Assembly: GCF_037963145.1 (NCBI RefSeq)
Contig: NZ_CP150144.1
Span: 1,116,001-1,180,000 of the forward strand
Length of the DNA stretch: 64,000 nt
Origin: Oceanobacillus sp. FSL K6-2867
GTDB taxonomy: Bacteria > Bacillota > Bacilli > Bacillales > Amphibacillaceae
Direction: 5' to 3'
The notes below the pieces were generated by a model. It did not search any database. It saw nothing but the letters and a program-made list of their open reading frames with translations, and was not told where the DNA came from. This document shows positions 43,974-57,081 of the stretch, one piece after another (positions within the stretch are counted from its first letter, which is position 1; each line of letters starts with the position of its first letter). Made by a program: the position numbers and the translations under genes.

Positions 43974-44696
43974 CTAAAAACCTTGAAAGTCCCCAAAAAT
44001 TGGTGCTAACAGAGCGTTGACAAGAGTAAATTTATCAAAAAACAAAACAACTCCCATTATAATCATAATACTTCCGCCAATTCTCATGAACATCCTACTG
44101 TATTTTTTTATCCACGTAAATTTAGCAATAAAAAATGCCATTAAGAAAAACGGAATACTAAAGCCTAATATATAAGAAATCATATACCATAGTCCTTGGG
44201 ATGGGTTTGCACCAACAAGTGTTAACGTAGCTGCTAATATAGGTCCCATGCAAGGTGTCCAGCCTAATGCAAAAGCTAATCCTATTATGATCGTACCGAT
44301 GTATCCAGTTGGTTTATTCTGAATGCCAAATTTATAGTCTTTCATCAAAAACTTCGGCTGGAATACTCCAATAGTTACCAAGCCAAAGAATACAATTAAA
44401 ATCGCTCCTATTTGCCGGATTAAATCACCATATTGCACATACCACGTTCCAATTAAACTTGCACTCCCTGCTGTTCCAAATCCCAGCACTAAATAGATGA
44501 TTGAAAATCCTAATAAAAAGAAAATGGTATGCATCATTGCTTTTCGTTGCCCGCTCCATTTACCGCTCTGGATATCTGATACACTCATTCCAGTAATATA
44601 TGATAGAAATGCCGGATATAACGGGAATACACAGGGTGAAACAAAAGATAACACACCTGCACCAAACGCAAGTAAAATGGAAATATCCGCCTGCAT
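43974..44696 (-). CDS. ccdA: Thiol-disulfide transporter CcdA
   Basis: This 240-residue protein has six membrane segments and the two Cys motifs of the DsbD/CcdA family: LSFVSPCVFPLYPAFLSY (about 16-33) and ALGWTPCMGPILAA (about 142-155). It passes reducing equivalents from thioredoxin across the membrane for cytochrome c maturation and sporulation. No resA or stoA is next to it. Confidence 0.93.
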   Translation of the reverse strand: MQADISILLAFGAGVLSFVSPCVFPLYPAFLSYITGMSVSDIQSGKWSGQRKAMMHTIFFLLGFSIIYLVLGFGTAGSASLIGTWYVQYGDLIRQIGAILIVFFGLVTIGVFQPKFLMKDYKFGIQNKPTGYIGTIIIGLAFALGWTPCMGPILAATLTLVGANPSQGLWYMISYILGFSIPFFLMAFFIAKFTWIKKYSRMFMRIGGSIMIIMGVVLFFDKFTLVNALLAPIFGDFQGF

Positions 44697-44750
44697 GTTA
44701 GCCCCCCTATTACCTTTACTTTAGTAACCATTACTTTTTCAGTACCTATT

Positions 44751-44882
44751 TTACCTTGCCTTACTTTTGTTAAGTTGATGCAATGCCATTAATATTTCTT
44801 TTTTAGAGTATATCTCAAATAACGATTTAATTTGATCTCTCTCTTCTTTAGAAAGTGTTTTAGTTGTTTTGAGCTGATACAT
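44751..44882 (-). CDS. Possible 43-residue small protein
   Basis: A short frame, ATG to TAA, encodes MYQLKTTKTLSKEERDQIKS followed by a Lys-rich helical tail ending NKSKAR. An AAAGGGAAG segment lies about 8 bases before the ATG. The codon use is like that of neighbours and the predicted product is a basic helix. It lies between mnmA and ccdA on the same strand. No family is recognised. Confidence 0.45.
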   Translation of the reverse strand: MYQLKTTKTLSKEERDQIKSLFEIYSKKEILMALHQLNKSKAR

Positions 44883-45056
44883 GTTACGCTTCCCTTTTCA
44901 AATGATTGCTTTAATATAAGACCATGCTGTCTATCGATCTAATGATTATTCTTGAAATATAAACTATTAAATATAGCAAGAGTGATTATCCTTCTTTTGT
45001 TATCAATCTTCTTTCTCGGTTAACATCATCTGCGGATGTATCACTCCGTTTCTTAT

Positions 45057-46193
<1,137 letters not shown>

Positions 46194-46424
46194 TTATAAA
46201 TCCTTTTGACCTTTAACCTTTAAACGATGAACTTTTAAAGGGGTGACATCATTACCCAGTGGATCCAGCACTTTCATTCCTGAAAAAGTGTGGAGCACTT
46301 GGCCACGAATGGCACGTAAATAATCTTCTCGAAGGACCTGCTGCTCAACTTTTTCAGCATTGGTCAGTCCTTCTTCACGCTGTTTCTTTGCTAACTCATT
46401 AATTCTTGGTAACAAGTCAATCAT
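46194..46424 (-). CDS. DUF896 (UPF0291) small protein
   Basis: This protein of about 76 residues has MIDLLPRINELAKKQREEGLT..., the LREDYLRAIRGQVLHTFSGM segment and a C-terminal VTPLKVH, matching the YnzC/YozC group of cytosolic SOS-associated or unknown small proteins. The ATG at 46424 is chosen; a GTG three codons earlier is an alternative. Confidence 0.8.
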   Translation of the reverse strand: MIDLLPRINELAKKQREEGLTNAEKVEQQVLREDYLRAIRGQVLHTFSGMKVLDPLGNDVTPLKVHRLKVKGQKDL

Positions 46425-46462
46425 GCTTTTCACCGACCTAACTAACTAATTTCGTTTCGTGT

Positions 46463-47005
46463 TTATTCAATAACTTCAGTATGGAAGCAACGCATCATAT
46501 GGTTTACCATTGTCTCTCCAAGATCCGTAAATGTTGCGATACCCCGTTTATGAATAGCCGTTTTGAACCCTTCTGCATCTGCTCCCGAAACCGTTAAAAA
46601 GTCACAGATATCTGTGGTTACTCCAACTGTATGAACTTTTTCTACTCCTGAATTCTTTAAGGTTTCAGCTAAATCTGTTTTAAAGAATGCATTATAGTTT
46701 GTTTTTGGGGAATAAATCAGGTTTTTATTATCCTTATTATTTTGAAACCAATCATATAAATCCCCGTATAATTGTTGTCCTTTAGTACCTTCAACATTAT
46801 GGGACGGCCATAATTCAAAGTGTGGATCATTTGGCTGATGTGCATCCATTGATACAACAACCATTTCCCCACCTTCTAAAAATTTTGTCGCCAGATCCTT
46901 AATATAAGGTACTATTTCTTGTGCGGGCTTGCCAACAGTTAATGTTCCATCGTCTGCTACAAAATCATTGCTCATATCTACGATTAACAAAGCTTCTTTA
47001 GCCAA
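46463..47005 (-). CDS. pncA: Nicotinamidase (isochorismatase superfamily)
   Basis: This 180-residue cysteine hydrolase has the catalytic Asp in LLIVDMSNDFVADDGTL, metal-site SMDAHQPNDPHFELWP (about 52-67) and the nucleophile in VGVTTDICDFLTVSGA (about 128-143). The D-x-H...DPHFELWP form is typical of B. subtilis YueJ-like nicotinamidases, which make nicotinate from nicotinamide. It lies next to pncB, and nicotinamide is what the nearby sirtuin-like proteins would release. Confidence 0.9.
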   Translation of the reverse strand: MAKEALLIVDMSNDFVADDGTLTVGKPAQEIVPYIKDLATKFLEGGEMVVVSMDAHQPNDPHFELWPSHNVEGTKGQQLYGDLYDWFQNNKDNKNLIYSPKTNYNAFFKTDLAETLKNSGVEKVHTVGVTTDICDFLTVSGADAEGFKTAIHKRGIATFTDLGETMVNHMMRCFHTEVIE

Positions 47006-47083
47006 TTAAAACCAACTCCTACAGTTTTATTTTGAAATAACTTTACAGTTGATACGCATAAAGTGTTCCATGAATGTAGTTGT

Positions 47084-47127
47084 ATGGAGGCAGATAAAGT
47101 ACGGTATAAGTCTCTATCTGCCTCCAT
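47084..47127. terminator. 13-bp hairpin between pncB and pncA
   Basis: ATGGAGGCAGATA and TATCTGCCTCCAT pair perfectly. The T run (AATTTTT) is on the plus side, so for the minus-strand genes it is a stem without a classical terminator tail. It may partly separate expression of pncB and pncA. Confidence 0.5.
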
Positions 47128-47214
47128 GAATTTTTCCCAACGATCATATCGCTCTCTCTTTTAAAGCGGGTAAATAAGTGATATCCAAATTAAACTAAGC
47201 TTAGAAGTCCTTGA

Positions 47215-48678
47215 TTAAATGGCCGATATCGTTTTTAAGTTATGCTTTTTAGCTTGTTCTATATTTTTCATTTTGTTATCCCAACAGGCTTGACTCAAAT
47301 CGACTGGATATTCTGCCGGGTTTAAAGAGCGCTTGTATTCTTCCCATAAAAGGTCTAATTGTTGCTCGGCATATGATTGAATCTCCTCAACTGGAGGACA
47401 ATCATATAAAAGCATGCCGCCCTCAAAGATATCTTCGTGCAAGTCTTTGGCTATGAAATTCGTGACAAAACTTCCAATGTACGTATGCACTGGATGGAAC
47501 ATATGCAGTTTAGACTCTTTTTCAGGCTGTTCATAAGCCAAGGCAATATAATCCCCTTCTGATTTACTCGTAAGCTTGTTAATAATACGGTAGACCTTTT
47601 TTAATCCTGGTGTTGTAACTTTTTCAGGACTCGAGGAAATTTTGATTCGATCGGTCATCTGTCCAGTATCATCTTCCATCGATACCATCTTATACACAGC
47701 ACCTAAGGCTGGTTGGTCGAAGGCAGTAATTGCTTTGGTGCCAATTCCCCAGGCATCGATTTTCGCTCCTTGTGCATTTAAATTCATAATGGTATACTCA
47801 TCAAGATCATTTGAAGCTATAATTTTGGTATCAACAAAACCTGCTTGATCTAATAATTTTCTTGCTTCCTTGGAGAGATAAGCTAAATCTCCACTGTCTA
47901 ATCGAATACCTTCAAAATTTATGTTATCCAGCTCTTGCGCAACTCTTATTGCATTGGGAACACCAGATTTTAAAGTATCGTAAGTATCCACCAGGAAAAC
48001 ACAGTTTTTATTTCGTTTCGCGTACTTATGAAAAGCGATATATTCATCTTGGTACGCTTGAACATAGGAATGAGCATGTGTCCCGGAAACAGGAATACCA
48101 AATCGTTTTCCTGCCCGAACATTGCTTGTGCTAGAGAAACCGCCGATATAAGCTGCTCTCGTCCCCCATAATGCGGCATCGAATTCATGTGCACGTCTCG
48201 TACCAAATTCTGAAACAGATTGCTCTCCCGCAATTTGCTTGATGCGAGAGGCTTTTGTAGCAATTAGCGTTTGATAGTTTACTATATTCAACAATGCCGT
48301 TTCAATTAGTTGCGCTTCAACTAATGGTGCTTCGATACGCAGCATCGGTTCATTGCCAAATACAATTTCTCCTTCCTTCATAGCACGAACATTTCCTGTA
48401 AAACGTACTGTTCGTAAAAAGTCAACAAAATCTTCCGGGTAGCCTAGATCCTCTAAATAGTTTAAATCACTTTCAGAAAAATGGAAGTTCTGGAGATAAT
48501 CGATGATTCGTTCTAACCCAGCAAATATCGCATACCCATTTCCAAATGGCAGTTTTCGAAAATACAGTTCAAATACAGCTTTTTTGGTATGGATATTATC
48601 CTCCCAATATACCTTTGCCATATTAATTTGGTACAGGTCTGTGTGAAGGGCGAAACTGTCATCAACATAGCTGGTCAT
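47215..48678 (-). CDS. pncB: Nicotinate phosphoribosyltransferase PncB
   Basis: This 487-residue enzyme has the N-terminal DSFALHTDLYQINMAKVYW, SVSEFGTRRAHEFDAALWG (about 157-175), GTHAHSYVQAY with the phosphorylated-His region (about 201-211) and the RLDSGDLAYLS and ASNDLDEYTI segments. It forms NaMN from nicotinate and PRPP with ATP. It is the B. subtilis YueK type and is near pncA in both organisms. Confidence 0.95.
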   Translation of the reverse strand: MTSYVDDSFALHTDLYQINMAKVYWEDNIHTKKAVFELYFRKLPFGNGYAIFAGLERIIDYLQNFHFSESDLNYLEDLGYPEDFVDFLRTVRFTGNVRAMKEGEIVFGNEPMLRIEAPLVEAQLIETALLNIVNYQTLIATKASRIKQIAGEQSVSEFGTRRAHEFDAALWGTRAAYIGGFSSTSNVRAGKRFGIPVSGTHAHSYVQAYQDEYIAFHKYAKRNKNCVFLVDTYDTLKSGVPNAIRVAQELDNINFEGIRLDSGDLAYLSKEARKLLDQAGFVDTKIIASNDLDEYTIMNLNAQGAKIDAWGIGTKAITAFDQPALGAVYKMVSMEDDTGQMTDRIKISSSPEKVTTPGLKKVYRIINKLTSKSEGDYIALAYEQPEKESKLHMFHPVHTYIGSFVTNFIAKDLHEDIFEGGMLLYDCPPVEEIQSYAEQQLDLLWEEYKRSLNPAEYPVDLSQACWDNKMKNIEQAKKHNLKTISAI

Positions 48679-48745
48679 AACAATTTCCTCCTAAGATTAC
48701 AAATTATGCTTAGCTTCTAAATAACAAAAAATTTTGATTTCATAT

Positions 48746-49324
48746 CTATTCGTTTATTTCATTACTTTTTTGTAAAAGATCTTTCGCAAAATCAACAAGT
48801 TCGTGAGCTTCTTTAGTACGCAGATATTTTACATCTAAACCATCAGGGCCTAAACGGAAACGATCTAGTGCATCGGCATCCTTGAAAATCCGATACAGCA
48901 ACAGCCCTCGTTCATCAACGTTTGGTGATTTTTCAATTTCTGATATACCTAATGCATCATCTTGGTCATGGTAATAAGTGATATAATAGGTCCGCTCATC
49001 ATAAGGCAAATCGTTCTCACGGCAATATGCTTTGTAATACTCTGCTGCCCGTTTTCCATGTCCCCTATCAATCCCATCATCCATGCGGCGAGAATCGTGG
49101 AAAATAGCGGCCATTCCTAATGCATCCTGTTCCAGCTCACTTAACCCCTTTTTGTGACCGATAAGAAGTGCAAGCATCAACACACGAGCACAGTGTTTTT
49201 TCGTATGCAATTCACTTTTTGGCAGCCAAAATTCTACATTTTTCTCCATATACCTAACCATTCGCTCATACTTTTTCTTAATTGGCAGATACTCAGGAGC
49301 ATCAAGAACATTTGATAAAAACAT
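48746..49324 (-). CDS. HD-domain phosphohydrolase
   Basis: This 192-residue protein has the HD-type metal site: TKKHCARVLMLALLI (first His), AAIFHDSRRMDDGIDRGHGK (HD pair, about 94-113), YYHDQDDA and KDADALDRFRLG (last Asp). It probably hydrolyses a nucleotide or phosphoester. It sits 23 bp after a sirtuin-like gene within the NAD cluster, so a nicotinamide-nucleotide or ADP-ribose substrate is a reasonable guess only. Confidence 0.8.
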   Translation of the reverse strand: MFLSNVLDAPEYLPIKKKYERMVRYMEKNVEFWLPKSELHTKKHCARVLMLALLIGHKKGLSELEQDALGMAAIFHDSRRMDDGIDRGHGKRAAEYYKAYCRENDLPYDERTYYITYYHDQDDALGISEIEKSPNVDERGLLLYRIFKDADALDRFRLGPDGLDVKYLRTKEAHELVDFAKDLLQKSNEINE

Positions 49325-49347
49325 CTTTCATTCCTCTCCGTTTCCAA

Positions 49348-50190
49348 TTACTTTAACTGTACTAATTGTTGTAATACTTCTGCAGTATCACCATTGATAC
49401 CAATAGATTTCGCAGCAATTTCTTCAGGAATATAGAGTTCTCCCTTGTTGAGCGTAATGTAGGTAGCATTTTTCTCGGCATTCGTTATATCCATAAATGG
49501 CGCTTTAATCAATTGATTTCTTGCACCTACTCCTAATTCCAGCAGAACTAATTTTTTCCCTTGGTTCTTATCAATAAAATCCTGATAAGCTTTGAAGCTT
49601 GCTTGCCAAGCCTCTCCTTTTAAAAAGTTTCTGTCTACCTCTAAATGAACTTGCATTGGACCGCCACACTCTGGACACTCAGGAACTAGATCTGAAGGGA
49701 CTTTTCCATTTTCCTGTTTTCGTGCCATTTCGCTTAATACGTTATCACCTGAGTAAATTTTATCATGACAACCATTTATGCATTGCAGATTCCTGCAATT
49801 TCCCTCTATCTCAAAGAGGCGATTTTCTGGAAATCCTGCTTGTCTGAAATGGTCATCTATATTGGAAGTAACTACAAAAAAGTCTTTATCTTCTACAAGT
49901 TTATACAGATTTTTCATTACCGAACTTGCTTCCCCAGTGTATAAAAAGTAGTCGTACATCCGACTGAAGAATGCCCACTTTTCTTCCTCGGAAGGAAATG
50001 GATAAAAGCAGCCCTGTATAATACTGCGAAAACCATACTTCTCACGGAAATCACCGAAGTTTTCTATGAAATCCTTGTTTTCAGCGAAAATATGAATACC
50101 CTCCGAGATTGAAAGACCGTTACTTGCACCGATAACAATCCCGTCAGCCTCTTTGACTTTTGTTATTACTTCTGAATATATATTACTCAT
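49348..50190 (-). CDS. Sirtuin-like protein 1 (class M-like)
   Basis: This 280-residue Rossmann-type SIR2-family protein has the NAD-binding VIGASNGLSISEG (about 19-31), the VTSNIDDHFRQAGF segment (Asn110, corresponding to the TQNID motif) and a zinc ribbon with Cys137, Cys141, Cys172 and Cys175. The catalytic His of ordinary sirtuins (HG) is replaced: EIEGN, Glu129. Class M sirtuins (SirTM) have Gln at this place and remove or add ADP-ribose rather than deacetylate. It is the most divergent of the three copies here. It lies 105 bp after sirtuin-like 2. Confidence 0.82.
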   Translation of the reverse strand: MSNIYSEVITKVKEADGIVIGASNGLSISEGIHIFAENKDFIENFGDFREKYGFRSIIQGCFYPFPSEEEKWAFFSRMYDYFLYTGEASSVMKNLYKLVEDKDFFVVTSNIDDHFRQAGFPENRLFEIEGNCRNLQCINGCHDKIYSGDNVLSEMARKQENGKVPSDLVPECPECGGPMQVHLEVDRNFLKGEAWQASFKAYQDFIDKNQGKKLVLLELGVGARNQLIKAPFMDITNAEKNATYITLNKGELYIPEEIAAKSIGINGDTAEVLQQLVQLK

Positions 50191-50295
50191 ATAATTTTAC
50201 CTCCTACGATACTAAAGTTGCACGCTTAAAGCCTGTCCAAATCAAACGAGCTGATTTGCTTATCGCAATTTATTGGAATGCTGTAGCCTTCTTTA

Positions 50296-51174
50296 TTAAA
50301 GTACACCTTGTTTCTTCTCTTTTTTCATTTCAACTAAAACATCCTGCAGCACTTGCGCTATATCTTCATGAATAGCTGTTCCCTTATCATTTAACTCTTT
50401 TGGCAGCAATGCATCTTTCGGATTGATGGTAATATAGTATGCATCAGGCCAGCTGTAAGTCATGTTCCAGAAGGGTTCTTGGATGAACATCGGAGTCATT
50501 CGTCCAACACCTAACTCCAAAAAAAGTACTTTCTTATTTTGGTTTTCAAGAAGAAATTCACGATATTTTTTATGCTCATCTCTATATTTGGATCCTTCCA
50601 AAAATACAAATGATCGCACCCACAGTTCCATAGGTCCACCACATTCCGAGCACTTGGGAATCATGCCAGATGGAACCTTCGTTCCTTCCATGTGGGTACA
50701 CATTTCTTTTGCCTGTTCCACAAAAGGATAGACTTGGTCGTGACAAGGGCCCGAGCATTGTATCGATGTCCAATTCCCTTGAATGGCACTGACCTTTTCT
50801 TCAGGGAAAACTTGTAAAAATTGTGTATCCTGATTTGTCGTAAGAATAAAGTATTCTTTATCTTGCAGGATTTGTTCTAAATCCTTGTATGGCTGTCCGA
50901 CAGGAACTTCTGCTACAAAGTTAATCAAAGTTGCGAGATATGCCCAGCGTTCTTCCTCCGTACGGAATTTATGGTAAAAGCCTCCAAAGATACTATCGAT
51001 TCCATACGCTTCAGCAAATGCGTTAAAATACTTTCGAAACATTTCATCGTCTCGATACCAGTTATATCCTGCAGCAGCGGACATACCGGAAGCACCGCCA
51101 ACTACAATTGCTTCAGCTTCTTGAATTTTTTGTCTTAATGTAGCTATATTGTCTTGATATTGTTGTGAAATCAT
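50296..51174 (-). CDS. Sirtuin-like protein 2 (class M-like)
   Basis: This 292-residue SIR2-family protein has AIVVGGASGMSAAAGYNWY (about 22-40), LTTNQDTQF (Asn114; Gln replaces the usual Ile/Val), Gln132 in AIQGNW where classical sirtuins have the catalytic His, and zinc Cys140, Cys144, Cys175 and Cys178. Gln at the catalytic place is the class M (SirTM) feature, suggesting ADP-ribosyl chemistry. It is about 60 percent alike by eye to sirtuin-like 3 (52119-52988). A promoter and operator block lies upstream at 51320-51381. Confidence 0.85.
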   Translation of the reverse strand: MISQQYQDNIATLRQKIQEAEAIVVGGASGMSAAAGYNWYRDDEMFRKYFNAFAEAYGIDSIFGGFYHKFRTEEERWAYLATLINFVAEVPVGQPYKDLEQILQDKEYFILTTNQDTQFLQVFPEEKVSAIQGNWTSIQCSGPCHDQVYPFVEQAKEMCTHMEGTKVPSGMIPKCSECGGPMELWVRSFVFLEGSKYRDEHKKYREFLLENQNKKVLFLELGVGRMTPMFIQEPFWNMTYSWPDAYYITINPKDALLPKELNDKGTAIHEDIAQVLQDVLVEMKKEKKQGVL

Positions 51175-51444
51175 ATTTTACATATCCTCCTAATGGTTTT
51201 TATTCGCAGTCGAAAAACATCTAAATTTCCACCACTTTGCTAGTATTTAGATTCAATTAAAAGTATATTTCTCTTTATTGCACTGCGAATCCCCTTTTTT
51301 GTTTCTAAATACATTATAATGTTTGTATAAAACAGGAAACAAGTATGCACTTTTTTGACGTATACTATCTAAAAGGATAGTGATATTCGAAAATTTAATG
51401 TTTACGCACTAACAGATAATCAGGTTAAAAACATTCCTTTTTTG
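51175..51444. other. 270-bp gap between sirtuin-like 2 and the NadD paralogue
   Basis: This region holds no complete gene. It carries the promoter of sirtuin-like 2 and copy A of the 44-bp block (51338-51381). The same block at 53090 is followed by an HxlR gene; here nothing codes for a regulator. Confidence 0.7.
51318..51381 (-). promoter_or_regulatory. Sirtuin-like 2 promoter and duplicated operator block A
   Basis: On the minus strand TTGTTT, an 18-bp spacer and TATAAT make a promoter for the gene at 51174. The 44-bp block 51338-51381 begins AACAAGTATGCACTTTTTT and ends with the dyad TACTATC...GGATAGT. It matches 53090-53133. Confidence 0.75.
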
Positions 51445-52074
51445 TTAGACTTTCTCCCTATTTTGATACAAATTATTGTTTTTAATATATTCATAACATT
51501 TCTCAGGGAGTAAGTATCGCGGTTCTCCTCCCTGTTGGAATTCATCTCGAATAAAAGTTGAGCTTGTCTCCATAGCCAGTCCTTTGTCGACTAAATGGAA
51601 AGTTTGACCATCATCTGCATTGCGCAAAATCGGGGATCTTGCAATCACAGCTAACATATCAATATCATTTCTCGCCATGACAATAAACTTATTCTCATGT
51701 ACAAGCTCCTTTGTCTTTTTCCACTTTCCCTCTCCGATATCCACTAGTAGATCAGCCCCCATAATGAAAAAGACCTCATCATCGGAATATACTTTTTTAA
51801 AATGCTCCAATGTATGGTAGGTAGCAATATCCCAAGCATGCTGATTCATCTCATAATCGTTGGCGACAAACTTATCATTATCGTTAATCGCTAAACGGAT
51901 TAGTTTCCAACGATGATCATCAGAAATATGGATCCGCTTGTCAGGACGCTGATGGGAACTCGGCAGGAAAATGACAAAATCCAATTTATAACGATGTGCG
52001 ACTGTACTTGCCGTCCATAAGTGGACATTTGTAATTGGATCGAATGATGATCCAAAGATTCCAACTTTCCCCAC
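51445..52074 (-). CDS. NadD-like nucleotidyltransferase (divergent paralogue)
   Basis: This protein of about 209 residues is of the nicotinate-nucleotide adenylyltransferase type. The nucleotide-binding motif normally GGTFDPIHNGHL reads GSSFDPITNVHL (about 8-19), with the first His and the Gly changed. FIMGADLLVDIGEGKW (about 101-116) and the phosphate-site SSTFIRDEF (about 172-180) are kept. The expected reaction is NaMN plus ATP to NaAD. The start is the GTG at 52074, with GGGGAG 6 bases upstream. It lies 44 bp after sirtuin-like 3, within the NAD cluster, and is probably an extra copy beside the housekeeping nadD. Confidence 0.82.
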   Translation of the reverse strand: MGKVGIFGSSFDPITNVHLWTASTVAHRYKLDFVIFLPSSHQRPDKRIHISDDHRWKLIRLAINDNDKFVANDYEMNQHAWDIATYHTLEHFKKVYSDDEVFFIMGADLLVDIGEGKWKKTKELVHENKFIVMARNDIDMLAVIARSPILRNADDGQTFHLVDKGLAMETSSTFIRDEFQQGGEPRYLLPEKCYEYIKNNNLYQNREKV

Positions 52075-52118
52075 AATATTCTCCCCTTGAAACAACCCCC
52101 ATATCATATAGAACATCG

Positions 52119-52988
52119 CTATATCATTGGGTTAGTTTTTCTTTTTTTCATGACATCTTGAAGTACACGCGCAATATCTTCATTAATTGCAAGCCCTTTA
52201 TTCGCTATCTCTTTAGGCACTTCCGCATCAATAGGATTAATACTGATATAGGATGCACCGGGCAGACTAAAAGTCATCTCCCAAAATGGCTCTTTAATAA
52301 ACATTGGTGTCATTTTTCCTACACCTAATTCCAGGAATAGAACTTTCTTATATTTATTTTTTGTAAGATAAACTTGAAATTTAATTAATTCGTTTCTAAA
52401 AGAGCTGCCTTCCAAAAATATCCGAGAACGGACCCATGGCTCCATATCATGGCCACACTGTGGGCATGTTGGAATTAATTCTGTTGGAATTCTAGTTTCC
52501 TCCATATTTTGATACATTTTGTCAACTAGCTCTTTATTGAAATAAACCTGATCATGACAACGATTGCTGCATTGAAAATAACGCCAATCCCCTTGAATCA
52601 CAGACACTTTCTCTTCAGGAAAAACCTTTGAAAACTGCGTATCCTGATTTGTTGTCAAAATGAAATAGTTTTTATTCTGAAGCAGTTGTTCCAAATCAAG
52701 ATAGGGCTGACCTGGTTCAGCATCGTATACAAACTTGATTAAAGTAGCAATATAAGCCCACCGTTCTTCCCTTGATTCAAAAGGATAGTAAAAGCCGTAA
52801 AAAATATTCTCGATCCCGTATTTATCAGCAAATTTTCCAAAGTAATTTAAAAAAATTTCGTCTGTCTGATACCAGTTATATCCCGCCGCAGCGGACATTC
52901 CAGCTGCACCCCCAACTACAATCGCCTCAGCTTCTTCCAATTTTTGATGTAATTCTGCTATATGGTCTTGATATTGTTGATCTAACAA
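52119..52988 (-). CDS. Sirtuin-like protein 3 (class M-like)
   Basis: This protein of about 289 residues is a close paralogue of sirtuin-like 2, aligning without gaps over the first 150 residues: AIVVGGAAGMSAAAGYNWY (about 22-40), LTTNQDTQF (Asn114), Gln132 in VIQGDW, and zinc Cys140, Cys144, Cys175 and Cys178. The start is taken as the TTG at 52988 (GGAGG 10 bases upstream) because it gives MLDQQYQDH, in register with MISQQYQDN of paralogue 2. It is divergent from the HxlR gene and shares the operator block at 53090. Confidence 0.85.
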   Translation of the reverse strand: MLDQQYQDHIAELHQKLEEAEAIVVGGAAGMSAAAGYNWYQTDEIFLNYFGKFADKYGIENIFYGFYYPFESREERWAYIATLIKFVYDAEPGQPYLDLEQLLQNKNYFILTTNQDTQFSKVFPEEKVSVIQGDWRYFQCSNRCHDQVYFNKELVDKMYQNMEETRIPTELIPTCPQCGHDMEPWVRSRIFLEGSSFRNELIKFQVYLTKNKYKKVLFLELGVGKMTPMFIKEPFWEMTFSLPGASYISINPIDAEVPKEIANKGLAINEDIARVLQDVMKKRKTNPMI

Positions 52989-53061
52989 TATAATCATTCC
53001 TCCAATTATGTCTAAAAGCATTTCAGCTTCGTTTTGAAACATCGCTTTACTTGAATCTAAA

Positions 53062-53133
53062 TGTATTATATAGTTGATATAAATTAATTAACAAGTATGC
53101 ACTTTTTTACCGCATACTATCTTGGAGGATAGT
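53062..53133. promoter_or_regulatory. Divergent promoter region with operator block B
   Basis: On the minus strand TTGTTA, 18 bp and TATAAT form the promoter for sirtuin-like 3. The 44-bp block (53090-53133) contains AGTATGC/GCATACT and ATACTATC/GATAGTAT inverted repeats and overlaps the -35 box. The HxlR gene starts just to its right. The block is the obvious binding site for that regulator. Confidence 0.75.
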
Positions 53134-53139
53134 ATAAAC

Positions 53140-53478
53140 ATGGAAAAGACTAATTTTAATGCTACCGACAACCAGGAACCTTTTTTTGGATACACTCTTT
53201 CTATCATAAGCGGAAAATGGAAACTGCAAATTATCTATCATTTATCCAAAAATGGTGCTGTACGCTATAATGAACTTCAGCGTATGCTAGGTAAAATAAC
53301 CTTCAAAACACTTAGCACTGCACTGAAGGAAATGGTGAATGACGGGATTATTCATCGTAAGGAATATCCGCAAATCCCCCCCAAGGTCGAATATAGCCTT
53401 ACTGAGAAAGGACAAACTCTATGGCCTATCATTCAGGAAATGTGTCAATGGGGAGAATATAATCAGCCACAAAAATAA
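53140..53478 (+). CDS. HxlR-family transcriptional regulator
   Basis: This protein of about 112 residues has a winged helix of the HxlR type: FFGYTLSIISGKWKLQIIYH, RYNELQRMLGKITFKTLSTA, LKEMVNDGIIHRKEYPQIPP and VEYSLTEKGQTLWPII. There is no extra effector domain and only one Cys, in the C-terminal MCQWGE. It is divergent from sirtuin-like 3, and its operator is duplicated before sirtuin-like 2, so it probably controls the sirtuin/NAD genes. The ATG at 53140 follows GGAGG by 11 bases. Confidence 0.88.
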   Translation: MEKTNFNATDNQEPFFGYTLSIISGKWKLQIIYHLSKNGAVRYNELQRMLGKITFKTLSTALKEMVNDGIIHRKEYPQIPPKVEYSLTEKGQTLWPIIQEMCQWGEYNQPQK

Positions 53479-53528
53479 TTGCAAGAGTACTCCTATAACC
53501 TCGCTCAATAAAAGGAAAACAAAAGTAA

Positions 53529-53562
53529 AAACCCGGGAGAAGATAATCCTCGTCCCGGGTTA
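53529..53562 (+). terminator. Terminator after the HxlR gene
   Basis: AACCCGGGA and TCCCGGGTT (allowing one bulge) form a GC-rich hairpin about 50 bp after the stop; the T tract is weak. Confidence 0.6.
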
Positions 53563-53628
53563 AAATATTTGTTTAATTATGTACTGTCTTTTTGTAATTT
53601 GGAGACATGCTTTTTTTATGTCAGCTTA

Positions 53629-54069
53629 TTACGTTGCACTCAATGGATTCTGCTGTTTAACTTCTTTTATGGATAAATACAAAGAATAGTTTCCATATTC
53701 AAGAATCTGATTAAGAAATTGATTCAATTGTTCTTGAGTACTCACTTTTACTTTCAAATGGTAACACCCTTCTCCTGATACACGATGTGCTTCAACCACT
53801 TCTTTCCGTTCTTTAATACATCTCAAAAATGGATCATGGTTTGCTGTTTTCATATAAATTATTACAAATGCAGTAAAGATTAATCCCAGCTTCATTTCAT
53901 CTGCTATTAAAGAATATGCTTTAATTACACCACTATCTTCAAGCTTTTTAATCCGATTCCCTACAGCTTGTCCTGTCATATGAATTTGTTCGCCCAAGTC
54001 TTTCCATTGAACACGTGAATTTTCGGATAGTAGCTGAAGTATTTGAAAATCAATGTTATCAAGTTCCAT
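53629..54069 (-). CDS. Lrp/AsnC-family regulator
   Basis: This 146-residue protein has the N-terminal HTH LDNIDFQILQLLSENSRVQW, MTGQAVGNRIKKLEDSGVI and a C-terminal RAM domain with VVEAHRVSGEGCYHLKVKV (about 91-109). It probably responds to an amino acid or related metabolite. It is divergent (118 bp) from the isochorismatase-family gene at 54188, its likely target. Confidence 0.88.
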   Translation of the reverse strand: MELDNIDFQILQLLSENSRVQWKDLGEQIHMTGQAVGNRIKKLEDSGVIKAYSLIADEMKLGLIFTAFVIIYMKTANHDPFLRCIKERKEVVEAHRVSGEGCYHLKVKVSTQEQLNQFLNQILEYGNYSLYLSIKEVKQQNPLSAT

Positions 54070-54187
54070 AATTAATTCCTTTCATCATGAAATGATTTGC
54101 TGCAAAAGTGTTTCATCAAAGTATCGATAGAAACCATAGTATCATTTATCATTATATTGTATCAAAAAATTATATGAGGTGATAATA

Positions 54188-54742
54188 ATGAGTACTGCTT
54201 TAATTATTGTTGATATTCAAAATGACTATTTTCCAAATGGAAAAATGGAGTTAGTCAATCCTGATAAAGCTGCTGCTAACGCTGCTAAGGTTCTAGAATG
54301 GTTTAGACAGCATAATAAAGATAATATTTTTCACGTTCAGCATATCGCAAGTGATTCAGCACTAGGATTCTTTCTTCCAGATACAGAGGGTGCTGAGATA
54401 AATGATACTGTTCAACCATTAGAAAACGAAAGCATTATTACGAAACATTTCCCTAATAGCTTTTTAAAAACAGAATTAGAAAGTGAATTAAAAGAAAGGG
54501 GAGTAACCAAAGTTGTGGTTGTAGGTATGATGACACATATGTGTATTGATGCAACCGTAAGAGCTGCTGTGGATTTAGGTTATGAAACTACACTTATTGA
54601 AGATGCTTGCGCTACAAGAGAATTATCTTATGAAGGTAAAGCAGTTCCAGCTGAACAAGTTCATTATGCATTTGTCGGCGCGCTTGAAAGTATGTATGCG
54701 ACTGTAACATCAACCGAAGATTTTCTAGCAGAAAAAAAATAA
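54188..54742 (+). CDS. Isochorismatase-family cysteine hydrolase
   Basis: This 184-residue protein has TALIIVDIQNDYFPNGKMEL (catalytic Asp), ITKHFPNSFLKT (catalytic Lys region) and the nucleophile in VVVVGMMTHMCIDATVRAA (Cys about 117). It lacks the DPHFELWP metal loop of the nicotinamidase at 46463, so it acts on a different amide or ester. The start at 54188 follows GAGGTG 6 bases upstream. Confidence 0.85.
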   Translation: MSTALIIVDIQNDYFPNGKMELVNPDKAAANAAKVLEWFRQHNKDNIFHVQHIASDSALGFFLPDTEGAEINDTVQPLENESIITKHFPNSFLKTELESELKERGVTKVVVVGMMTHMCIDATVRAAVDLGYETTLIEDACATRELSYEGKAVPAEQVHYAFVGALESMYATVTSTEDFLAEKK

Positions 54743-54794
54743 TTTCGTTTAACTGAATCATTAGCAGGAGTTATTATGAATTTATAGTTTGTTT

Positions 54795-54843
54795 CTGTCC
54801 ATGACGGTCTAGTTTCTTAAGTTTACCGTCATGGACAGTTTTG
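54795..54843 (+). terminator. Terminator after the isochorismatase-family gene
   Basis: CTGTCCATGACGGT and ACCGTCATGGACAG form a perfect 14-bp stem followed by TTTTG. Confidence 0.85.
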
Positions 54844-54892
54844 TTAAGACAGAAACAACGAATAAGTTGTTATTCTAAAAAGTCTTCATTGC

Positions 54893-55804
54893 TTATTTAG
54901 AATTAAGATCTTCAATAGAATCGATATCCATATACTCAGGAACAACAAGCCCGATTTTAGCACCAGTTAGGTTAGGGCCTAAATCCACAATGTTATCCTG
55001 ATTTGCCTCATAAAAATCTTTATGTGTCAGCGGCAGCCAAGCTCCTAGAGTGGCATCTGCATCTCCTGTAGCAATCGATTCAAACATAATGGCTACGTCT
55101 AACTCGGTTACCGTGACGTTAAACCCTTTTTGTTCCATCACTTCTTTTAAAACACCTGAAGATGCACGTTCGGAATCCCACGGTGTTGAAGCAAGTACGA
55201 TTTCTGTTCCGTCAACATCTTCTACGCCTTCCACCCATTCCGCTACTCTATCTTGGTTATCCTCAACCCATTGTATTGCTACTTTTTCTATATCTGTACC
55301 AGATTCTTCAGCTTCATACATAATTGCTTCCATATCTTCTACATTCCATTCGAATTGATCAATTAATTTATAAGCTTCTGGTTTTTCCTCTTTTAGTCCA
55401 GTTTTTGCCAGCGAATTAATGGTTTCCTCTCCACCATAAACTCCTTTTGGGTCTTCCAGATATTTCATATCTGGATACTCCGCAAACATCCAATGCGGGT
55501 TCCATCCAGTAATTATAATCGGTTCCTCATTCTCAATTGCACCACCAAGTTCAGTCATCATCGCTCCAGTAGAAGATAATTCTACGTTCCAGCCCTGCAA
55601 ATTATCGTATTCTTCGATTGCCTTCTCCGTTGTAACCGAGATTCCTGCTCCTGGTTCAATCCCAGTGATAGTATAATCCACTTCTTTACTATAATCAGCT
55701 TTACCATTATTGTCCGCTGCATTTCCATCTGAACTGCCGCAAGCTGCAAGTAAAAATATAGCCAAGATTCCAAAAATTACCCCTGCAAGTTTTCCATTTT
55801 TCAA
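54893..55804 (-). CDS. Glycine betaine-type substrate-binding lipoprotein (OpuAC-like), orphan
   Basis: This 303-residue lipoprotein has lipobox LAAC (residues 19-22). The OpuAC fold is shown by ITGIEPGAGISVTTEKAI, IIITGWNPHWMFAEY with the aromatic cage Trp residues (about 97-111), STPWDSERASSGVL and TLGAWLPLTHKDFY. The C-terminal IGLVVPEYMDIDSIEDL is in the usual place, so the protein is complete. It binds glycine betaine or a related osmolyte outside the membrane. No OpuAA or OpuAB gene is next to it, so the ATPase and permease must lie elsewhere. Confidence 0.88.
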   Translation of the reverse strand: MKNGKLAGVIFGILAIFLLAACGSSDGNAADNNGKADYSKEVDYTITGIEPGAGISVTTEKAIEEYDNLQGWNVELSSTGAMMTELGGAIENEEPIIITGWNPHWMFAEYPDMKYLEDPKGVYGGEETINSLAKTGLKEEKPEAYKLIDQFEWNVEDMEAIMYEAEESGTDIEKVAIQWVEDNQDRVAEWVEGVEDVDGTEIVLASTPWDSERASSGVLKEVMEQKGFNVTVTELDVAIMFESIATGDADATLGAWLPLTHKDFYEANQDNIVDLGPNLTGAKIGLVVPEYMDIDSIEDLNSK

Positions 55805-56376
55805 AACTAACTCCTCCTGTTTGTCTGTGTCTACTCTCTTCTTACAGAAACATCATTAAGCTTTATAAAGCTTTCAATCGCTTTCAACAAATCTTGCCTA
55901 AACAATTAAGAAGAGATAAATACAAATTATAATTAAATATGTTACATTTCTTTCTACACATTTTCAAATCGCATATTAATGCAAATAGATGAGTATGACT
56001 GGATATAGCCCATTCCGCCTAATAAAATAGTGAAAAATCTTAAGTTTGGTCTTTTTTCCTCTATAATGAGATTGAGAAAGTGAAAACTCCCTCTCTTCCT
56101 TTGTTCATTTCAAACAGTATGCTTTGTAAAGTAAGTCGATCGGAAGTGATCAGGAAAAAACTAGCATCAGGACAAAACTCAATTGAGTTTTTTGTCAGCT
56201 AAACGAAAAACAAAGATAAGCTGGCTAATAGATTCGTTATATACTTAATAAAATACTATTTTGGTTTACTCAGTTCATTTAATATTGTATTTTAAAGGGG
56301 GAATTCCAAATTTTATATAAGTTAGGAATAATCTTTCCAGGAAATGAACCATCGATAATTAAGGAGGTACATAATA
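55805..56376. other. 572-bp gap between the OpuAC-like gene and the SDR gene
   Basis: I see no gene here. It is AT-rich with a small palindromic hairpin, AAACTCAATTGAGTTT followed by TTT (56178-56196), and the ribosome site of the SDR gene at its end (AAGGAGGTACATA). The length leaves room for osmotic-stress promoters, which I could not define. Confidence 0.6.
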
Positions 56377-57081
56377 ATGACTAAACAATTAGCAGGTAAA
56401 ACGGCCATTGTTACAGGGGCAAGCAGTGGAATCGGAACTGCAATTGCAAAAGAGATTGCTAAGGCAGGTGCTAATGTGGTGCTTGCTGCAAGAAGTCAAG
56501 AGAAGCTTGCACAAATAGCAAAAGAGATTAGCCAAAATGAAAAAACGTTATGTGTTAAAGCAGACGTGACGAACCAAAAGGATGTTGACTCCCTTGCAAA
56601 GCTAGCAAAACAGGCATTTGGAAATGTAGATATATATATTAATAATGCCGGGAAAATGGGTTCGAGCAGAGTTTTAAAAGGAGATGTGTCTGACTGGGAA
56701 GAGATGATTGATATCAATATAAAGGGAGTTCTCTATGGTATTCATTCAGTCTTGCCTGCTATGCTGGAAAAAGGCAGTGGTCATATTGTTAATATCGCTT
56801 CTGATTCAGGGTTTGAAGTTACAGAAAGACTTACAGTGTACTGTGCAACAAAATTTGCGGTACGTGCAATCTCCACAGGATTGGAAAAAGAACTTGCCAA
56901 AACTGGCGTTCGCGTCACCAATATTTCTCCAGGCATGGTTGAAACGCCATTAAGTTCAAAAAGTCCATTTGACAGCGACAGAAAAAAACTTTTGCCGGAA
57001 GACATTGCACGGGCGGTAGTTTATGCAGTTACTCAGCCAGATTACGTAAATGTAAACGAAATTTTGGTTAGACCTATTTAA
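56377..57081 (+). CDS. Short-chain dehydrogenase/reductase
   Basis: This 234-residue classical SDR has the cofactor motif TGASSGIG (about 14-21), NNAG (about 88-91) and the catalytic Ser...YCATK (Ser at about 141, Tyr 155, Lys 159). The Arg after the second strand (LAARSQEKL) suggests NADP(H). The substrate is unknown. It is a single gene with a strong ribosome site. Confidence 0.9.
   Translation: MTKQLAGKTAIVTGASSGIGTAIAKEIAKAGANVVLAARSQEKLAQIAKEISQNEKTLCVKADVTNQKDVDSLAKLAKQAFGNVDIYINNAGKMGSSRVLKGDVSDWEEMIDINIKGVLYGIHSVLPAMLEKGSGHIVNIASDSGFEVTERLTVYCATKFAVRAISTGLEKELAKTGVRVTNISPGMVETPLSSKSPFDSDRKKLLPEDIARAVVYAVTQPDYVNVNEILVRPI

Follow-up and report, generated by a model that had tools for sequence, protein, structure and literature searches.

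Gene content and order of the cassette

The single-contig genome (4.40 Mb) of Oceanobacillus sp. FSL K6-2867 carries a 7-kb cassette of three sirtuin genes and several genes related to the salvage of nicotinamide adenine dinucleotide (NAD), located at positions 46463..53478 of the window analysed here (the whole stretch of 64,000 nucleotides from 1,116,001 to 1,180,000 of the contig). Open reading frame calls place all eight genes in this interval, and their families, named by profile scans with Pfam and NCBIfam, agree with those given in the preliminary description of this DNA: three SIR2-family proteins (SirA, SirB and SirC), a nicotinamidase (PncA), a nicotinate phosphoribosyltransferase (PncB), a NadD paralogue, an HD-domain hydrolase and an HxlR-family regulator. 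Read against the plus strand, the divergent HxlR gene is followed by SirC and the NadD paralogue, then by SirB, SirA, HD, PncB and PncA, and finally by an MnmA gene. Since both this order and this content recur in relatives, the grouping exceeds what chance would produce.

46463..47005, minus strand: pncA, nicotinamidase-type isochorismatase-fold hydrolase with a TTG start (PF00857, 82.5 bits)
47215..48678, minus strand: pncB, nicotinate phosphoribosyltransferase (NF006697, NAPRTase, 902 bits)
48746..49324, minus strand: HD-domain hydrolase, directly downstream of SirA (PF01966, 25.2 bits, cut-off 22)
49348..50190, minus strand: SirA, "EG" sirtuin (Pfam SIR2, 28.6 bits, cut-off 24), with Glu129 at the catalytic His/Gln position
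50296..51174, minus strand: SirB, "QG" class-M-like sirtuin (5a3a at 5e-46), with Gln, Arg, Asn and GVGxxTP retained
51341..51368, plus strand: HxlR-type operator, second copy, before SirB (pattern match)
51445..52116, minus strand: paralogue of nadD, with a QG unit on either side (TIGR00482, 138 bits, cut-off 112)
52119..53042, minus strand: SirC, second "QG" sirtuin, 62% identical to SirB (NCBIfam sirtuin models below cut-off)
53093..53120, plus strand: operator between SirC and HxlR (pattern match)
53140..53478, plus strand: HxlR-family regulator, divergent from the sirtuins (PF01638, 110 bits, cut-off 20.8)

The HxlR gene more likely starts at the ATG at 53140, behind a GGAGGA, and the true start of SirC probably lies near 52985-52997. 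SirB and SirC reached no Pfam family and matched the NCBIfam sirtuin models far below cut-off; against the structure of the S. pyogenes class M sirtuin (5a3a), SirB scored 5e-46 and SirA 3e-42.

Two kinds of sirtuin and their pairing

Sirtuins known to date have a catalytic His or, in class M, a Gln at the same position, and the class M enzyme SirTM requires Asn118, Gln137 and Arg192 and carries a GVGx[NT]TP motif (PMC4518038). Alignment revealed that the HG of the catalytic site is replaced by QG, i.e. by the class M Gln, in SirB and SirC and by EG in SirA, so that none of the three has the His of canonical Sir2/CobB sirtuins. The assignment of all three to a class-M-like group in the preliminary description is thus retained for SirB and SirC, whereas SirA has a Glu.

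These residues were followed through a census that started with 154 rows, proteins shorter than 215 amino acids, containing stops or identical to others having been removed beforehand; removal of five rows repeating proteins of the own genome left 50 proteins with Glu (EG), 98 with Gln (QG) and one with Leu (L026), which stands outside both counts. In four loci the motif rule assigned one sirtuin no more than a "?", and in two of these (L032 and L049) that sirtuin corresponds to an interrupted EG gene according to tblastn. The counterparts of Asn118, Gln137 and Arg192 are retained in all 98 QG proteins, as is the TP of the GVGx[NT]TP motif. Glu129 occupies the Gln position in each of the 50 distinct EG proteins, the Arg192 equivalent is found in none of them, SirA included, and within the GVGx[NT]TP motif Asn replaces Thr in 49/50 and Pro is absent in 49/50. 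The EG proteins also have a signature of their own, with Ser23, Asn24, Ile28, Phe35 and His114 present in 50/50 and Glu30 in 48/50, none of which occurs in the 98 QG proteins, and with Asn110 and Asn248 invariant (50/50). As placed from alignments, Asn24 of SirA would correspond to Ala34 of SirTM, and because this Ala contacts nicotinamide (PMC4518038), the substitution suggests an altered nicotinamide pocket in the EG sirtuins. All four zinc cysteines are lost in 14 of the 50 EG proteins (nine from Bacteroidota, four from lactobacilli and one from Pseudobutyrivibrio), which nevertheless keep Glu129 and His114; the presence of Glu129, His114, Asn24 and Asn110 in 50/50, even without the zinc cysteines, points to selection on the active site. 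The AlphaFold model of SirA is confident (predicted local distance difference test score, pLDDT, of 94.4) and has 5a3a as its closest structure (template modelling score, TM, 0.91; 29% identity). SirA retains ADP-ribose-binding residues without the Gln/Arg pair, its invariant Glu, His and Asn being located in and near the site. Among the Bacteroidota with an EG gene devoid of zinc cysteines, a gene of the cation-efflux (zinc transporter) type lies between QG and EG in L034, L035 and L038; such a gene is found two genes downstream of EG in L039, the family having been checked by Pfam in L035.

A total of 48 named loci was collected with two EG peptide patterns, several of them on contigs of only 3-7 kb. 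A QG gene adjoins the EG gene or is one gene away from it in 47 of these loci, the exception being L024, while the genes of the Zn-macrodomain protein (Zn-Macro), of GcvH-L and of the lipoate ligase LplA were each found in none of the 48. The unit is therefore one EG sirtuin with one or more QG sirtuins, and not the sirtuin triplet that gave the locus its first name. In a tree of 91 rows, where the outgroup and the EG row L040 are on long branches, the EG proteins form one clade (support 100/100) and their QG partners, including SirC, another (98/99); the macrodomain-linked QG proteins are placed separately, and the branch joining the EG and QG-partner groups is weak (90/37). Distances between EG proteins and between their QG partners are correlated over 45 loci (r 0.77; the highest value of 1000 permutations is 0.31).

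To lessen the bias of a search based on EG, a QG profile was also used, which matched 19/398 genomes of the class of the window (E 1e-60) and 64/391 genomes of the class of Clostridium sp. CX1 (E 1e-40), the best 30 loci of these 64 genomes being inspected. Among the 52 loci found in this way, 47 have Zn-Macro without EG, five (representing four operons) have EG without Zn-Macro, and none has both or neither; L155 and L159, "neither" by the motif rule, were counted as EG since they form part of EG operons on reading of the rows. The two genomes on which the search was centred, the present one and that of Clostridium sp. CX1, both hold EG operons; without them Zn-Macro is found in 46/48 loci and EG in 2/48. 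The mutual exclusion of macrodomain and EG is thus clear as a pattern at the level of the locus. Searched for Zn-Macro, the 38 genomes bearing the cassette gave a full-length match in six cases, partial macrodomain matches only in 12 and nothing at 1e-10 in 20.

The genome of Oceanobacillus itself holds a classical operon (L071, C1:1788092), 620 kb from the cassette, with the run GcvH-L, Zn-Macro, SirTM, LplA and luciferase-like oxidoreductase, in addition to one Pfam SIR2 sirtuin elsewhere (C1:2468083). The cell therefore has both kinds of system on one chromosome, and the classical operon can serve as a natural control for the cassette. The absence of macrodomain, GcvH-L and lipoate ligase noticed in the preliminary description accordingly holds for the locus and its 48 relatives and does not extend to the genome. 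As the Zn-macrodomain is missing at the window locus and in all related loci, SirB and SirC are filed here as class-M-like rather than class M. With the SirTM/Zn-macrodomain operons (Rack 2015, PMC4518038; Ariza 2024, PMC11490716) they share the equivalents of Asn118, Gln137 and Arg192, the GVGx[NT]TP motif and sequence closeness to 5a3a; the cassette differs from these operons by lacking macrodomain, GcvH-L and LplA, by its adjacent Glu-type sirtuin, by the frequent presence of HD and NAD salvage genes and by the separate clade of its sirtuins, and it likewise departs from the extended SirTM operon (GcvH-L, LplA2, LLM/OYE), neither GcvH-L nor LplA standing beside the sirtuin in any of the 48 loci. 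The Glu of SirA, the EG-QG pairing, the operator-like motif presented below and the classical operon of the same genome are all additions to the preliminary description.

Regulator, companion genes and distribution

The motif AGTATGC-N11-GCATACT, a pattern derived from the two copies in the window themselves, occurs between SirC and HxlR and again before SirB, both copies being included in a 93-nt repeat (75% identity between the SirC/HxlR region and the front of SirB). It was found at the cassette in 17/17 of the relatives searched, all of which had been selected for the presence of HxlR. Allowing up to three mismatches, 17 places were retrieved in the own genome, with an exact match only at the two sites of the cassette, and a control pattern gave one. 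The HxlR gene is present in 18/48 loci, in 16 of them in the divergent position, and we infer from the position and conservation of the motif that HxlR would bind it. Three of the 17 relatives have a further exact copy of the motif in front of a DsbD/CcdA-like gene (L206, L207 and L222), this gene being different from the CcdA-like gene of the window. Only a C-terminal Cys is kept across all 17 HxlR homologues, a further Cys occurring in L012 alone. Single representatives of other lineages have Rrf2, TetR or AraC regulators nearby. Elsewhere in the genome (C1:2.368-2.418 Mb; L191-L198 and further places), a sister motif, ACTATATG...AAAGTGCGTACTT, is repeated around an HxlR gene and around genes of the OMP decarboxylase/HUMPS family (checked by Pfam in L196).

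The companion genes are more variable than the sirtuin pair. HD directly follows EG in 19/48 loci: 16 loci of the Bacillales and Clostridium series L002-L019, one from Cellulosilyticum and two from Bacteroidota. The product is an HD-domain hydrolase by its profile and by its metal-ligand residues, H39, H75, D76, H88, H118 and D150 being invariant in 33 close homologues, and it has its HD domain and fold in common with the YpgQ-like hydrolases of the HD superfamily. Foldseek returned no match under 0.001 for its fold, and in a second comparison many HD and phosphodiesterase folds tied, including those of enzymes acting on ADP-ribosylated ubiquitin, which we regard as a lead only. The protein had been expected to be YqeK; 2o08, which we take to be YqeK, figured among the weak Foldseek matches and was absent from the matches shown for the second comparison.

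By similarity to the window genes, PncB is near the pair in 15/48 loci and PncA in 8/48, weak homologues being undercounted in these figures, as illustrated by L031 (Phocaeicola), in which genes for an isochorismatase and a NAPRTase come after HD. The order PncB-PncA is shared by relatives and by two megaplasmids, and an NAD synthase was verified with Pfam for L002 and L012. The sirtuins, HD and PncB/PncA are linked across several genera and two phyla, in line with the linkage expected in the preliminary description. HD requires five changes on the EG tree and PncB nine, and both must therefore have been gained or lost repeatedly. A search of the own genome at E 1e-20 found no other copy of pncB. 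A background linkage of PncB to this kind of site was considered and rejected, since in the 29 PncB loci of relatives used as a control neither a sirtuin nor an HD or MnmA gene lies within about 1.5 kb of PncB; in four of these 29, PncB is flanked by PncA-like and NadD-like genes (the latter at 60-63% to the NadD of the window), and these four represent pncA-pncB-nadD clusters, unlike the cassette in their lack of those neighbours. NadD was also rejected as a core member, its paralogue occurring in 1/48 related loci and another NadD being encoded at C1:50334. The local NAD cycle initially proposed is chemically sound, and its PncA/PncB part recurs to some extent, whereas its NadD step does not.

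The closest named relatives of SirA are from Virgibacillus and other Bacillaceae. Close relatives of the EG sirtuin are rare: at 1e-80, a strict cut-off that misses distant EG sirtuins and those of the lactobacillus type, EG was retrieved in 2/398 genomes of the window's class, the own genome included. On megaplasmids, the run QG-EG-HD-PncB-PncA with an HxlR gene was found in Mesobacillus foraminis and Paenibacillus sp. 37, and lactobacillus plasmids carry a bare EG-QG pair among insertion sequences and transposases. The lactobacillus EG is fused to a Cupin_5-like region (L131, 7001-8320; L134, 5965-7296), which scored 27.7 bits in one of them (cut-off 25) and 21.4, below the cut-off, in the other.

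Beyond pncA, the window holds a second mnmA (45057-46172), encoding a tRNA 2-thiouridylase that shares 71% identity with the copy at C1:95022, and an MnmA gene was found near the cassette in 9/48 related loci; further on lies the DsbD/CcdA-like gene of the window (43974-44696), homologues of which (75-77% identity) are near the cassette in L002, L005 and L018. On the other side, beside HxlR (53629-54742), are an AsnC/Lrp regulator and a second isochorismatase-type hydrolase, found near the cassette in 11/48 and 10/48 loci, respectively, which may belong to it. A scan of 44500-56500 with Rfam matched no RNA element; promoter-like sites were as frequent as expected from shuffled sequence (35 vs 34.5) and terminator-like sites slightly more frequent (10 vs 6.0).

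A putative ADP-ribosylation module and its alternatives

We interpret the cassette, with moderate confidence, as a horizontally moving and stress-controlled ADP-ribosylation module made of two diverged sirtuins, with EG in the place of the macrodomain and with nicotinamide salvage. The new ADP-ribosylation system that was among the first suggestions for this locus remains the best reading. The sequence itself shows the genes, their pairing, their residues, the conserved motif and the presence on plasmids, whereas all activities, the substrate, the binding of HxlR and its signal are inferred. Judging from their residues, SirB and SirC would use NAD to modify a target, yielding the ADP-ribosylated target and nicotinamide, as does SirTM, an ADP-ribosyltransferase linked to oxidative stress (PMC4518038). 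For SirA, a near-constant second enzyme, we favour a role in hydrolysing or further transferring the ADP-ribosyl product of QG, or in a joint active assembly. Where present, HD would probably cleave ADP-ribose once it is released, or else a pyrophosphate or diester related to it, while PncA and PncB would convert nicotinamide to nicotinate mononucleotide (NaMN), from which NadD and NadE would complete NAD. Through AGTATGC-N11-GCATACT, HxlR would switch the units on, probably in response to a thiol or electrophile signal, as the CcdA link and the role of SirTM in oxidative stress (PMC4518038) suggest. A narrower proposal, which we advance tentatively, is that EG is a sirtuin-fold ADP-ribosyl hydrolase, the first "eraser" sirtuin replacing the Zn-macrodomain, with HD, PncA and PncB recovering both halves of NAD. 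If so, writing and erasing would both be performed by sirtuins, with a dedicated NAD-recovery cycle.

Several observations weigh against the preferred module. Hydrolysis by EG is a guess from its residues, and EG could be a non-catalytic partner; the EG of L024 has no QG neighbour. The exclusion between macrodomain and EG may stem from one ancient split, after which each QG clade inherited its own partner, and the classical SirTM system of the same genome could overlap with the cassette. HD and PncB are each missing from more than half of the EG loci, and the NAD cycle is consequently not essential to the EG-QG pair. As to the signal, HxlR regulators of the YodB type have an N-terminal sensor Cys, which is missing from the HxlR of the window, and the CcdA-like gene behind the operator is intact in one of the three relatives and apparently interrupted in the other two.

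The sirtuins could instead form a joint NAD hydrolase, in which a mixed QG-EG assembly, active only as such, turns over NAD under stress while PncA and PncB restore the pool, an alternative that we find possible but rather doubtful. It has a precedent in human FAM118A and FAM118B, which are reported to process NAD well only when mixed, with both active sites required (PMC12700824), and which are two diverged sirtuin paralogues working together, as EG and QG would be. The near-constant pairing and the linked salvage genes would fit; however, QG retains the residues that SirTM needs for transfer, many loci with the pair have no salvage genes, and the FAM118 proteins belong to SIR2_2 and use an active-site His (PMC12700824) that is absent from both QG and EG. 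A purely binding role of EG, as a non-catalytic paralogue that takes up ADP-ribose or NAD and acts as a sensor or as the regulatory subunit of QG, is unlikely: the Gln/Arg pair is gone, as are all four zinc cysteines in 14 of the 50 proteins, which would suit such a role, but the constancy of Glu129, His114, Asn24 and Asn110 in these same proteins speaks for an active site under selection.

Two further explanations make more of the mobility of the pair. The sirtuin-macrodomain pair has been termed type-II toxin-antitoxin-like (PMC9503650), and the presence of EG-QG pairs on plasmids among transposases would suit a toxin-antitoxin-like function, QG ADP-ribosylating an essential target and EG neutralising it; against this, the companion genes are metabolic, the divergent regulator is conserved and QG has been duplicated with no EG to match, all of which is atypical of such systems, and we consider this quite improbable. 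Least probable of all is an anti-phage defence by NAD depletion, as raised in the preliminary description. Sirtuin NADases do occur in defence systems (PMC9503650), and the cassette is sporadic and mobile; yet PADLOC, which covers described systems, gave no match for the eight window proteins, no defence gene was recognised among the annotated neighbours, which lay outside that scan, EG was found in no viral contig and once, at a distance (31.7%), in a phage collection, and the salvage genes would counter the depletion of NAD. These searches thus gave no evidence for a role in defence.

Taken as an ADP-ribosylation module, the cassette appears to be a SirTM-type protein-tagging system whose customary tag-removing partner has given way to another protein. 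Neither an EG sirtuin nor such a cassette was met in the literature searched, by titles and beginnings of abstracts and mostly outside subscription journals. A sirtuin clade with an invariant Glu, whose site stays constant even without the zinc cysteines, predicts a new NAD or ADP-ribose chemistry, and the position of EG in the macrodomain's place is a genetic clue to its function. The cassette may in this way bear on a question left open for SirTM systems in PMC11490716, that of their other targets and roles.

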